In this document: positions 61,803 to 64,000 of the stretch, in pieces
How the letters are laid out: each line of letters opens with the position of its first letter
How positions within the stretch are numbered: position 1 is the first letter of the stretch
NCBI RefSeq assembly: GCF_000222485.1
Contig: NC_015914.1
Coordinates: 2,800,501 to 2,864,500 of the forward strand
DNA length: 64,000 nucleotides
Source: Cyclobacterium marinum DSM 745
GTDB lineage: Bacteria > Bacteroidota > Bacteroidia > Cytophagales > Cyclobacteriaceae
Reading direction: 5' to 3'
Translations under genes and position numbers: made by a program
Notes under the pieces: model-generated
What the model was told of the DNA's origin: nothing
Database searches by the model: none
Seen by the model: the letters and a program-made list of their open reading frames with translations, nothing else

Positions 61803-61880
61803 GGGAGTTTAGCTCAGTTGGTTCAGAGCATCTGCCTTACAAGCAGAGGGTCGGGGGTTCGAATCCCTCAACTCCCACCA
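61803..61880 (+). tRNA. tRNA-Val (anticodon UAC), copy 2
   Basis: Identical over all 78 nt to copy 1, CCA encoded. It is followed immediately by a terminator hairpin and then by the GIY-YIG array, so it is the likely insertion target that stayed intact. Confidence 0.97.
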
Positions 61881-61881
61881 C

Positions 61882-61905
61882 AAGCCTTTTTAGAAGGCTT
61901 TTTTT
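61882..61905 (+). terminator. tRNA terminator, repeated in every array unit
   Basis: 7-bp stem AAGCCTT / AAGGCTT, loop TTTAG, then a T-run; begins one base after the CCA. Near-identical copies follow each tRNA remnant at 62233-62255, 62583-62605, 62933-62955, 63290-63313 and 63641-63663; a last one is cut by the window end (63991 on). Each GIY-YIG ATG lies a few bases after the T-run. Confidence 0.85.
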
Positions 61906-61909
61906 ATTT

Positions 61910-62164
61910 ATGCACTGTCACTTTTATATATTGTTTTCCAGATGCAAAAACCGATATTATATCGGAGCGAGCTGTGATGAACTTAAAGAAAGAGTTCGCA
62001 GGCATAATTCCAACCACAAGAAAGGTTTTACGGGAACAGTGAATGACTGGGAGTTGGTTTATTCTGAAGACTTTAAATCAAAGGAGGAAGCCTTCTCCAG
62101 AGAGCGGGAAGTTAAAAAATGGAAAAGCCGTAAGAAAATTGAGACGCTAATAAGCTCAACATGA
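61910..62164 (+). CDS. small GIY-YIG nuclease, array copy 1
   Basis: 84-aa single-domain GIY-YIG endonuclease, the size of the stand-alone GIY-YIG proteins common in Bacteroidota. The first motif is YIL (residues 6-8), the second YYIG (16-19); the catalytic Arg is in LKERVRRHN (Arg28, with His32), and the metal-binding Glu is Glu65 in AFSREREVKKWKSRKK. There is no DNA-binding domain besides. The start ATG follows the tRNA terminator T-run by four bases with no ribosome-binding site, so expression may need read-through. The last codons (SST, stop) run into a D-arm-like GCTC...GAGC. The family is clear; target tRNA or tRNA gene is inferred from position. Confidence 0.85.
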   Translation: MHCHFYILFSRCKNRYYIGASCDELKERVRRHNSNHKKGFTGTVNDWELVYSEDFKSKEEAFSREREVKKWKSRKKIETLISST

Positions 62165-62169
62165 CATTT

Positions 62170-62231
62170 GATTCAGAGCATTCCGATTTACATCGGAAGG
62201 GTCGGGGGTTCGAATCCCTCAACTCCCACCA
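62170..62231 (+). other. tRNA-Val 3' remnant 1
   Basis: 62 nt matching tRNA-Val from the D-arm 3' side to CCA, lacking the 5' acceptor strand and so not a functional tRNA. The anticodon arm differs: TTCCGA / TCGGAA with loop TTTACA replaces TCTGC / GCAGA with CTTACAA, so both strands changed and pairing is kept. Variable region, T arm, acceptor 3' strand and CCA are identical to the tRNA. Confidence 0.9.
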
Positions 62232-62259
62232 CAAGCCTTTTAGAAGGCTTTTTTTATTT

Positions 62260-62514
62260 ATGCACTGTCACTTTTATATATTGTTTTCCAAGTGCAAAAA
62301 TCGATATTATATCGGAGCGACCTGTGATGAACTTAAAGAAAGAGTTCGCAGGCATAATTCCAACCACAAGAAAGGTTTTACGGGAACAGTGAATGACTGG
62401 GAGTTGGTTTATTCTGAAGACTTTAAATCAAAGGAGGAAGCCTTCTCCAGAGAGCGGGAAGTTAAAAAATGGAAAAGCCGTAAGAAAATTGAGACGCTAA
62501 TAAGCTCAACATGA
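62260..62514 (+). CDS. small GIY-YIG nuclease, array copy 2
   Basis: 84 aa, same motifs as copy 1 with substitutions R11K and S21T. Start four bases after the second terminator T-run. All catalytic residues (Tyr6, Tyr17, Gly19, Arg28, His32, Glu65) are kept. Its stop TGA overlaps an ATG (ATGA at 62511-62514) that opens a longer frame through the tRNA remnant into copy 3. Confidence 0.85.
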   Translation: MHCHFYILFSKCKNRYYIGATCDELKERVRRHNSNHKKGFTGTVNDWELVYSEDFKSKEEAFSREREVKKWKSRKKIETLISST

Positions 62515-62519
62515 CATTT

Positions 62520-62581
62520 GATTCAGAGCATTCCGATTTACATCGGAAGGGTCGGGGGTTCGAATCCCTCAACTCCCACCA
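62520..62581 (+). other. tRNA-Val 3' remnant 2
   Basis: Identical to remnant 1, including the altered but paired anticodon arm. Confidence 0.9.
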
Positions 62582-62609
62582 CAAGCCTTTTAGAAGGCTT
62601 TTTTTATTT

Positions 62610-62864
62610 ATGCACTGTCACTTTTATATATTGTTTTCCAGATGCAAAAATCGATATTATATCGGAGCGAGCTGTGATGAACTTAAAGAAAGGGTTCGCA
62701 GGCATAATTCCAACCACAAGAAAGGTTTTACGGGAACAGTGAATGACTGGGAGTTGGTTTATTCTGAAGACTTTAAATCAAAGGAGGAAGCCTTCTCCAG
62801 AGAGCGGGAAGTTAAAAAATGGAAAAGCCGTAAGAAAATTGAGACGCTAATAAGCTCAACATGA
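62610..62864 (+). CDS. small GIY-YIG nuclease, array copy 3
   Basis: 84 aa with the protein sequence of copy 1, although the DNA differs (T instead of C in the AAAATCGA segment, and GGG for the AGA-type codon near residue 28). All catalytic residues are kept. Same terminator-to-ATG spacing as the other copies. Confidence 0.85.
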   Translation: MHCHFYILFSRCKNRYYIGASCDELKERVRRHNSNHKKGFTGTVNDWELVYSEDFKSKEEAFSREREVKKWKSRKKIETLISST

Positions 62865-62869
62865 CATTT

Positions 62870-62931
62870 GATTCAGAGCATTCCGATTTACATCGGAAGG
62901 GTCGGGGGTTCGAATCCCTCAACTCCCACCA
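62870..62931 (+). other. tRNA-Val 3' remnant 3
   Basis: Identical to remnant 1. Confidence 0.9.
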
Positions 62932-62959
62932 CAAGCCTTTTAGAAGGCTTTTTTTATTT

Positions 62960-63221
62960 ATGCACTGTCACTTTTATATATTGTTTTCCAGATGCAAAAA
63001 CCAAAAACCGATATTATATCGGAGCGACCTGTGATGAACTTAAAGAAAGAGTTCGCAGGCATAATTCCCACCACAAGAAAGGCTTTACGGGAACAGTGAA
63101 TGACTGGGAGTTGGTTTATTCTGAAGACTTTAAATCAAAGGAGGAAGCCTTCTCCAGAGAGCGGGAAGTTAAAAAATGGAAAAGCCGTAAGAAAATTGAG
63201 ACGCTAATAAGCTCAACATGA
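62960..63221 (+). pseudogene. GIY-YIG array copy 4, frameshifted
   Basis: A 7-bp insertion (a second CCAAAAA at about 63001-63007, evidently a slipped duplication) breaks the frame after residue 13, so the regular ATG at 62960 gives only a short peptide. The rest of the coding sequence, from KNRYYIGAT on, is intact and open in another frame that enters from the upstream tRNA remnant (TTG at 62868); that product would lack the YIL strand. One further change: N35H. Probably inactive. Confidence 0.85.
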
Positions 63222-63226
63222 CATTT

Positions 63227-63288
63227 GATTCAGAGCATTCCGATTTACATCGGAAGGGTCGGGGGTTCGAATCCCTCAACTCCCACCA
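63227..63288 (+). other. tRNA-Val 3' remnant 4
   Basis: Identical to remnant 1; the terminator behind it has one extra T in the loop, as in the tRNA copy 2 terminator. Confidence 0.9.
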
Positions 63289-63317
63289 CAAGCCTTTTTA
63301 GAAGGCTTTTTTTATTT

Positions 63318-63572
63318 ATGCACTGTCACTTTTATATATTGTTTTCCAGGTGCAAAAATCGATATTATATCGGAGCGACCTGTGATGAACTTAAAGAAAG
63401 AGTTCGCAGGCATAATTCCAACCACAAGAAAGGTTTTACGGGAACAGTGAATGACTGGGAGTTGGTTTATTCTGAAGACTTTAAATCAAAGGAGGAAGCC
63501 TTCTCCAGAGAGCGGGAAGTTAAAAAATGGAAAAGCCGTAAGAAAATTGAGACGCTAATAAGCTCAACATGA
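63318..63572 (+). CDS. small GIY-YIG nuclease, array copy 5
   Basis: 84 aa, like copy 1 with S21T. All motifs are intact (YIL, YYIG, Arg28, His32, Glu65). The tRNA remnant behind it is the one with the palindrome-completing substitutions. Confidence 0.85.
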   Translation: MHCHFYILFSRCKNRYYIGATCDELKERVRRHNSNHKKGFTGTVNDWELVYSEDFKSKEEAFSREREVKKWKSRKKIETLISST

Positions 63573-63577
63573 CATTT

Positions 63578-63639
63578 GATTCAGACCCTTCCGATTTACA
63601 TCGGAAGGGTCGGGGGTTCGAATCCCTCAACTCCCACCA
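63578..63639 (+). other. tRNA-Val 3' remnant 5, perfect palindrome variant
   Basis: Differs from the others by two substitutions (GAGCA to GACCC), which turn the 6-bp anticodon-like stem into a perfect 11-bp one: GACCCTTCCGA at 63584-63594 with its complement at 63601-63611 around TTTACA. Both changes increase pairing, as in hairpin-templated repair. Confidence 0.9.
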
Positions 63640-63667
63640 CAAGCCTTTTAGAAGGCTTTTTTTATTT

Positions 63668-63922
63668 ATGCACTGTCACTTTTATATATTGTTTTCCAGG
63701 TGCAAAAACCGATATTATATCAGAGCGACCTGTGATGAACTTAAAGAAAGGGTCCGTAGGTATAATTCCAACCACAAGAAAGGTTTTACGGGAACAGTGA
63801 ATGACTGGGAGTTGGTTTATTCTGAAGACTTTAAATCAAAGGAGGAAGCCTTCTCCAGAGAGCGGGAAGTTAAAAAATGGAAAAGCCGTAAGAAAATTGA
63901 GACGCTAATAAGCTCAACATGA
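63668..63922 (+). CDS. GIY-YIG array copy 6, YIG glycine lost
   Basis: 84 aa, open frame, but the second motif reads YYIR (Gly19 to Arg) and His32 is Tyr, besides S21T. Gly19 of the YIG motif is nearly invariant in the family, so this copy is probably catalytically impaired though still translated. The nucleotides around codons 28-34 are the most divergent of all copies. Confidence 0.8.
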   Translation: MHCHFYILFSRCKNRYYIRATCDELKERVRRYNSNHKKGFTGTVNDWELVYSEDFKSKEEAFSREREVKKWKSRKKIETLISST

Positions 63923-63927
63923 CATTT

Positions 63928-63989
63928 GATTCAGAGCATTCCGATTTACATCGGAAGGGTCGGGGGTTCGAATCCCTCAACTCCCACCA
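63928..63989 (+). other. tRNA-Val 3' remnant 6
   Basis: Identical to remnant 1. The following terminator is cut by the window end at 64000, so at least one further junction lies outside. Confidence 0.9.
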
Positions 63990-64000
63990 CAAGCCTTTTT

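Follow-up and report, generated by a model that had tools for sequence, protein, structure and literature searches.

Tandem arrays of small GIY-YIG nuclease genes with hairpin-bearing tRNA remnants behind tRNA genes of Cyclobacterium marinum and other Bacteroidota

A 64,000-nucleotide (nt) stretch of the 6,221,273-bp single-contig genome of Cyclobacterium marinum DSM 745 (NC_015914.1, positions 2,800,501 to 2,864,500; hereafter the window, whose coordinates are used for the parts of the array) ends in a tandem array of six units of 350-357 bp each (61881-63989), in which a terminator copy is followed by a reading frame for a small GIY-YIG nuclease and by the 3' remnant of a valine transfer RNA (tRNA) gene ending in CCA. 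The anticodon arm of these remnants is replaced by a hairpin, and related arrays stand behind tRNA genes of many types. The units were interpreted, with a probability of about 0.55, as minimal nuclease cassettes docked on a tRNA gene, the GIY-YIG enzyme being predicted to cut hairpins and the unit likely inserting and multiplying by recombination across the tRNA 3' end and the terminator that its copies have in common; cleavage, its target and the movement of the unit are what we infer from comparison of sequences.

According to the proposed mechanism, the GIY-YIG protein would nick at or beside a TYCCG...CGGRA hairpin extruded from single-stranded DNA, a state that could arise in replication, repair or DNA uptake. 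The cut end would be repaired from another copy by means of the 60-100 bp of homology that the tRNA 3' end and the terminator provide, and this repair would add, move or remove units beside the tRNA, while the intact tRNA gene, with its own anticodon arm lacking the motif, would be spared.

Anatomy of the array and of the hairpin in its remnants

The preliminary description of this DNA, made from the letters alone, had listed six tandem units of about 350 bp, each with a terminator, an 84-codon GIY-YIG open reading frame (ORF) and a tRNA-Val end, behind an intact tRNA gene. This layout and the identity of the GIY-YIG array were confirmed, with corrections: the 84-codon ORF is intact in five of the six units only, and the intact tRNA-Val(TAC) gene is present in two copies, both called with ARAGORN and Rfam, at 61675-61752 (RF00005, 75.8 bits) and at 61803-61880, the second being the one on which the array is docked. 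All features of the array lie on the + strand. A terminator-like hairpin with a T-run (61881-61909), defined by repeat comparison, follows the second tRNA gene and recurs behind the remnants. The GIY-YIG ORFs of 84 amino acids (aa) occupy 61910-62164 (unit 1; PF01541, E=2.6e-15), 62260-62514 (unit 2; 84 aa from the ATG within an open frame of 117 aa), 62610-62864 (unit 3; 84 aa from the ATG), 63318-63572 (unit 5) and 63668-63922 (unit 6), and the frame of unit 4 (62960-63221) is shifted by a 7-bp duplication near codon 10. The corresponding remnants, with the hairpin in brackets, were placed at 62165-62231 (62181-62198), 62515-62581 (62531-62548), 62865-62931 (62881-62898), 63222-63288 (63238-63255), 63573-63639 (63589-63606) and 63923-63989 (63939-63956). 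The array had also been said to continue past the window; it does so by just one further, seventh copy, truncated after ~40 codons (L016 2620-2739), beyond which the sequence is unrelated.

The GIY-YIG frame is the sole recognised gene of the 350-bp unit, and the earlier account of the unit as a nuclease plus a tRNA 3' end that occupies tRNA genes with no integrase was upheld. Alignment of the units gave 25 variable columns out of 358, of which seven represent the single insertion in unit 4 and five lie at the very start, where the length of the T-run shifts the alignment. Amplification of the tRNA-Val array is most simply ascribed to recombination between near-identical units, and the earlier suggestion that each copy records a separate insertion was not supported, as recent amplification of this kind explains the near-identity as well or better. 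Expression of the nuclease would likely occur by read-through from the tRNA promoter, because the sole promoter match on the + strand of 61301-64000 (Bacteroidota type, TTTG - 19 - TACATTTG, at 61520-61550) lies ahead of the first tRNA-Val gene.

Each remnant comprises 67 nt, made up of the 3' side of the D-arm, the hairpin, the T-arm with the 3' strand of the acceptor, and CCA. The preliminary description had treated it as a plain copy of the tRNA 3' portion and had overlooked that the anticodon-arm stretch of tRNA-Val, CTGCCTTACAAGCAG, is exchanged in the remnants for TTCCGATTTACATCGGAA, a 7-bp stem with a 4-nt loop. The identity of the remnants as transfer-messenger RNA or another RNA was considered and rejected, all Rfam matches being below threshold. 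Its recurrence is not a chance effect: the exact 18-mer TTCCGATTTACATCGGAA has six copies in the 6.2-Mb genome, compared with 0 of its reversed control. A genome-wide scatter of it in the manner of repetitive extragenic palindromic (REP) sequences was likewise rejected, since all six copies lie inside the array. In the remnant of unit 5, two substitutions (GAGCA to GACCC) complete a palindrome stem lengthened to 12 bp; judged from this sequence, they are likely the trace of hairpin-templated DNA synthesis.

A hairpin was scored as present in an array of the family (described below) if a perfectly paired stem of 6 bp or more, starting with T[CT]C, lay in the 140 nt that open shortly before the ORF ends. 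Such a stem was found in 47 of 69 arrays, compared with 110 of at most 5000 control windows taken from the same loci. Hairpins are alike behind the different tRNAs: those of Val, Asp, Ala, Asn, Leu, Thr and Lys arrays mostly read TYCCG...CGGRA, those of Pro arrays TCCTGAC...GTCAGGA and those of Met arrays TCCGYC...GRCGGA. For the Val type, 100 distinct hairpin strings were compared (15 of 115 having failed the requirement that at least four of the five outer pairs be Watson-Crick, and several of the 100 being intact tRNA arms or chance matches): pair 2 was C-G in 70, T-A in 29, T-G in 0 and C-A in 1, where the search pattern itself fixes pair 1 as T-A and restricts pair 2, and G-U occupied 5 of the 500 cells at pairs 1-5. 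The hairpin is conserved through paired change and shows little wobble in its outer pairs, a pattern that would fit a DNA palindrome better than an RNA stem. In two genomes (L106, L131) a second nuclease of the Pro clade is accompanied by the Pro-type hairpin over a tRNA-Asn-like remnant, which argues that the hairpin there tracks the nuclease and not the tRNA. The palindrome TCCCGANNNNTCGGGA is over-represented in 60 genomes of the family, with 211 copies vs 21 for the reversed control; the copies are clustered, partly in tRNA arrays and in ribosomal RNA (rRNA) genes. On the reverse strand of L113, tRNA-Thr remnants with at least three TYCCGATAGCTATCGGRA-type hairpins, at several arm positions, were noted 3' of each ORF.

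Docking behind tRNA genes and unoccupied sites

Two further arrays were found in the C. marinum genome. The first comprises five units behind tRNA-Asn(GTT) and encodes a distinct GIY-YIG protein, 32-34% identical to that of the window, and the second, on the other strand, consists of one further GIY-YIG copy (36% identical to the window's) and a fragment behind tRNA-Pro(GGG). Their remnants carry TCCCGGTGGACCGGGA and TCCTGACGGGAGTCAGGA at the position of the anticodon arm.

A protein search gave matches in 119 of 148 genomes of the family, and the loci were fetched by this protein match and not by the presence of a tRNA. A total of 98 arrays was obtained (L136, which duplicates the contig of L069, is not counted, and L135 and L213 were not used), of which 10 at contig ends were set aside, leaving 88 assessable arrays; array and unit counts include truncated copies. 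A same-strand tRNA gene was located within 160 nt upstream of the array start in 75 of the 88, and within 100 nt in 71. These 75 docked arrays stand behind tRNA genes of ten amino-acid types in total: Val(TAC) in 28 cases, Met in 11, Asp and Ala in 9 each, Pro and Thr in 5 each, Asn in 2, and Lys, Leu and His in one each, together with three odd calls. More than one unit is present in 37 of the 75, the largest array having 14 units behind tRNA-Asp (L070). The association of GIY-YIG genes with other tRNA genes, which the preliminary description had named as a check, was thus found behind many tRNA types.

The remaining 13 arrays comprise four that lie farther from a tRNA gene and nine without an ARAGORN call. 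Visual inspection of the nine revealed a truncated tRNA end in three (L077, L080, L110); three sit in other repeat clusters (L018, L111, L125) and three show neither feature. The tRNA-less GIY-YIG genes of L111 (2100-3146) and L125 (reverse strand, 2245-2526) lie among repeats of the TGACGGATAGCGACCGTCA or GTCATTGCGAGG type, a sequence arrangement which suggests that the GIY-YIG class may have several palindrome partners. Rfam was applied to 19 loci without a tRNA call and identified tRNAs in six of them, a group II intron in L322 and no further RNA family. A weak tRNA that ARAGORN had missed precedes the gene of L265 by 52 nt.

In a sample of Bacteroidota as a whole, the nuclease profile was matched in 198 of 296 genomes. 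Loci were obtained for the best matches only, 25 of them from other families, and a tRNA was present within 210 nt upstream in 23 of these 25, with one lacking a tRNA and one lying at a contig end. For the best 80 of 173 named loci, selected solely by similarity to the Val-type protein, 55 lie behind tRNA-Val(TAC) (43 within 120 nt and 12 within 1500 nt), 9 behind tRNA-Arg(TCT) and 5 behind other tRNA calls, with 6 at contig ends and 5 without an ARAGORN tRNA. Among the matches listed, the named proteins nearest to the window protein are those of Cyclobacterium. Contigs titled as Limnohabitans (L262) and Bifidobacterium breve (L322) bins encode a protein of the Bacteroidota type and are probably misbinned.

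Occupied and unoccupied states were compared at 24 tRNA-Val loci. A 3' hairpin was present at 14 of 14 loci with a full-length nuclease and at 0 of 7 without a nuclease, and at the other three the nuclease is truncated with no hairpin behind it. Hairpin-bearing pseudo-tRNAs were seen upstream of the intact tRNA at 8 of the 24 loci, including that of G085, which has no nuclease and keeps its pseudo-tRNA, and in G123, G040 and G108 the upstream pseudo-tRNA matches a 3' hairpin, loop included. The empty site foreseen in the preliminary description, in which tRNA and terminator are contiguous to the same far flank, was found in two genera: the distance between tRNA plus terminator and the shared downstream gene is 163 bp in G146 vs 889 bp in G047, and the tRNA site spans 139 bp in G082 vs 764 bp in G130, with both flanks conserved in each pair. 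In the other within-genus comparisons (G122/G065, G085/G001 and G114/G053) one side alone could be aligned. The terminator after the last remnant is unlike the inner terminators in G001, G065, G120 and G121. In G114 (L175), a CRISPR-like (clustered regularly interspaced short palindromic repeats) array starts shortly 3' of the unoccupied tRNA-Val site.

These data also bear on an explanation without mobility, in which the array goes back to one old duplication, grew by unequal crossing-over and was passed on vertically. Near-identity of the units and taxonomic clustering in the nuclease trees (see below) are in keeping with it, and the crossing-over part, which had been listed as an alternative, could account for the amplification of the array in the window. 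However, the occupation of different tRNA genes and the empty sites need more than such recombination, and given that arrays recur behind ten tRNA types within a single family, that two genera show empty sites with conserved sequence on either side, and inner terminators that differ from the terminal one in several genomes, immobility is very improbable.

The nuclease, its relatives and the source of the arrays

PF01541 (GIY-YIG) was matched above the curated cut-off by all seven proteins scanned, and residues Y6, Y17, G19, R28, H32 and E65 are invariant in an alignment of 31 diverse rows. The proportion of non-synonymous differences (pN) was lower than that of synonymous differences (pS) in 22 of 22 pairs tested, for which the synonymous divergence (dS) was often saturated; the nuclease is under purifying selection. 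The closest solved relatives by sequence profile are the UPF0213 proteins 1zg2 and 1ywl, followed by SLX1 (7cq2). Slx1 belongs to a structure-specific nuclease as one of its subunits, and we know of no tRNA docking or array for UPF0213/Slx1-like proteins.

A tree was calculated from 91 columns of 67 proteins, each representing one array, and many of its forks are unresolved. Its 12 tRNA labels, of which ValGAC (L084) and ValAAC (L047) look like hairpin-altered tRNA copies and not true isoacceptors, need 14 changes (minimum 11), compared with a mean of 40.5 after label shuffling (0 of 200 shuffles as low as 14). Nuclease clades track tRNA type, the exceptions being L082, L087, L093 and L117, which stand behind tRNA-Val yet fall outside the main Val clade, L116 (tRNA-Met), outside the Met clade, and L132 (tRNA-Pro), within the Val clade. 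The gene called Val(GAC) in L084 is tRNA-Asp-like with its anticodon arm partly swapped (GCCCGACCCGCGGGA), perhaps a tRNA caught in conversion.

Clades that follow tRNA type, and remnants that retain the T-arm and the acceptor 3' strand while the anticodon is lost, are also compatible with a tRNA-cutting toxin or defence system, in which each nuclease would cut one tRNA species and the pseudo-tRNA transcript would act as decoy or antitoxin. Such a system had been raised in the preliminary description and is weakened by a hairpin that is common to the tRNA types and to relatives of the nuclease in another phylum, and in which rare G-U pairs favour DNA over RNA. Furthermore, no acceptor 5' strand is present in the 3' remnants, the closest relatives of known structure (UPF0213 and SLX1) do not indicate tRNA cleavage, and among PADLOC families the window protein had no match and three relatives had weak partial ones; little credence was accordingly given to this explanation.

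Outside the phylum, the window protein matched a GIY-YIG frame of Neisseria gonorrhoeae with 33% identity, and comparison using hhalign gave a probability of 98.6% with 36% identity over 69 columns. We take the neisserial protein to be the single-strand nuclease Ssn, acting on dRS3-like repeats. Its gene lies amid 11 dRS3 repeats, the pattern of which is ATTCCC(N8)GGGAAT (PMC3898611). Both nucleases are small, single-domain GIY-YIG proteins with the gene embedded in T-Y-C-C hairpins; however, the neisserial repeats are intergenic with no tRNA, whereas in the present arrays the hairpin is part of tRNA remnants, and tandem copies of the gene are docked behind tRNA genes. In total, seven proteobacterial loci were opened (three search matches and four picked for diversity from 33 records). 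T-Y-C-C hairpins were found within ~230 nt of the gene in five (Neisseria, Azospirillum, Aeromonas, Rhizobium and Photobacterium), and a tRNA beside the GIY-YIG gene in none of the seven. The pairing of nuclease and hairpin appears to predate tRNA docking, which appears to be a speciality of Bacteroidota.

The neisserial homologue amid its 11 repeats would suit a nuclease that serves the host by controlling DNA uptake or recombination through hairpins, as Ssn does in Neisseria, with the arrays as a by-product of recombination at tRNA repeats. Purifying selection agrees with this, as does the correlation of hairpin and GIY-YIG counts per genome (rho 0.49, n=60), in which the hairpin counts include copies inside arrays and some in rRNA genes. 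However, losses, truncations and frameshifts look selfish, as do lineage-specific multiplication to 14 copies and the occupation of many tRNA genes, and a role of this kind is decidedly unlikely.

The closest precedent for amplification is SegB of phage T6, a free-standing GIY-YIG homing endonuclease frequently encoded near tRNAs of many isotypes (PMC13096335). SegB makes its cuts inside tRNA genes, and a 718-bp tRNA-Tyr-segB unit is amplified in tandem by its action, via microhomology and the phage recombination proteins UvsX/UvsY, while no amplification was obtained with a catalytic mutant (PMC13096335). The precedent supports nuclease-driven recombination as the engine of the arrays and equally supports a rival, in which a SegB-type homing endonuclease would cut the duplex tRNA gene, repair from an occupied locus would insert or multiply the unit, and the hairpin would be no more than an altered, cut-resistant anticodon arm. 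In favour of such homing are the behaviour of SegB itself, the GIY-YIG domain, a weak match (5.9e-06) of one of four proteins to the phage homing-endonuclease family phrog_314 in comparisons that did not include SegB, the fidelity of nuclease clades to tRNA type and the existence of empty and occupied sites. Resistance alone, however, does not require a replacement arm common across tRNA types, comparable hairpins also stand by the nuclease gene at loci that have no tRNA, and the intact tRNA of the occupied state would stay a target, although donor alleles are reported to be typically cut poorly (PMC13096335). Homing by cleavage of the tRNA gene was considered unlikely. As in the SegB case, a GIY-YIG gene adjoins tRNA genes, and tandem tRNA plus nuclease repeats are observed here; the SegB unit is, unlike ours, phage-borne, contains the whole tRNA-Tyr and arises under laboratory selection, whereas the present arrays lie in bacterial chromosomes, behind an intact tRNA and across a phylum. 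The available SegB passages make no mention of a hairpin partner or of an arm-replaced tRNA remnant, both of which are present here.

Two further classes of element invite comparison with the docked cassettes. The cassettes share with REP elements a nuclease-class gene associated with short palindromes, which are over-represented here; they differ in that the enzyme is a GIY-YIG protein (PF01541) and not a Y1 transposase, and in that the palindrome stands in for a tRNA arm. In REP elements the REP-associated tyrosine transposase (RAYT), a Y1 HUH enzyme, is bracketed by short palindromes and may act on DNA hairpins. Where integrative elements have a tRNA gene as their attachment site, the tRNA is restored at one end and its displaced 3' part is left at the other. 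A restored tRNA, a displaced 3' part and both empty and occupied sites are likewise found here, but with no integrase, a unit of 350 bp and a replaced anticodon arm in the remnant. The enzyme class, the phage tRNA link and the hairpin link in Neisseria are of kinds already known. A search of an open-access library, with most subscription papers outside its scope, listed no description of bacterial tRNA genes followed by GIY-YIG arrays whose tRNA remnants bear hairpins, which is weak evidence of novelty.

Weight of the evidence, wider implications and further hairpin repeats

Several observations weigh against nuclease cassettes that move by way of the hairpin. Neither cleavage nor movement, nor an excised or circular form, was observed, and nine of the 88 arrays lack an ARAGORN tRNA call. 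With regard to the hairpin, 22 of 69 arrays lack a perfect stem by the definition given above, some stems are interrupted (L068, L052), wobble is present at pair 7 (G-U in 9 of the 100 Val-type strings) and the exact TTCCGATTTACATCGGAA is not scattered around the C. marinum genome. Two of the seven proteobacterial loci show no such hairpin, and the count of five stands without control windows. SegB cuts inside tRNA genes and not at an added hairpin, which favours SegB-type homing. As to the spread of the units, taxonomic order was mapped on a tree of 77 named relatives (57 labelled) and needed 22 changes (minimum 6), compared with 29.4 after shuffling (0 of 200 as low); given this partial clustering, vertical inheritance combined with loss may account for much of the spread, and no horizontal transfer is claimed from the nuclease tree. 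No relative was found in 50,697 phage records, one was found in viral contigs (with no tRNA call there) and no match to the window protein was found in Bacteroidota plasmids; no vector emerged from these searches, and carriage by a phage or plasmid was set aside.

A wider reading is put forward tentatively, at somewhat less than even chances: that the cassettes represent a phylum-wide, minimal autonomous mobile DNA of ~350 bp, consisting of an 84-codon nuclease gene and its own hairpin, which would use essential tRNA genes as safe harbours, rebuild the tRNA 3' end and write the hairpin over the anticodon arm in the displaced copy, with nuclease lineages dedicated to tRNA lineages and with copies of other structured-RNA genes (5S rRNA and perhaps 23S rRNA helices) drawn into the replacement. 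If the mechanism is true, the units would be among the smallest self-encoding mobile units, and the build-up of pseudo-tRNAs at tRNA loci of Bacteroidota genomes would be explained. One testable scheme would link the evolution of tRNA genes to palindromic repeats and to hairpin nucleases, and SegB-type, nuclease-driven tandem amplification would be extended from phage to bacterial chromosomes.

Hairpin repeats were also seen elsewhere. At ~6.081 Mb of the C. marinum genome (L202 1011-1867), two intact tRNA-Asp genes enclose a tandem row of eight pseudo-tRNA-Asp copies of 79 bp, in which TCCCGAYTTATCGGGA takes the place of the anticodon arm, and no GIY-YIG gene was found there. Repeats of 269 bp behind 5S rRNA genes (L198 ~940-1360 and L200 ~4090-4540) hold 3' parts of pseudo-5S genes, the helices of which are swapped for TCCGCCGCGGCGGA and TCCCGACTCATCGGGA hairpins, and no GIY-YIG frame was found in these either. 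The sequence TCCCGATTTATCGGGA occurs twice inside a 23S rRNA gene (L200 1227-1242 and 2293-2308; large-subunit match 1097-3986), and the hairpin may replace helix tips of the working 23S rRNA as well. Finally, a tRNA-less GIY-YIG gene at ~4.82 Mb of the C. marinum genome (L018 3700-4050) lies within a dense cluster of TTCGACAAGCTCAGG-type repeats.

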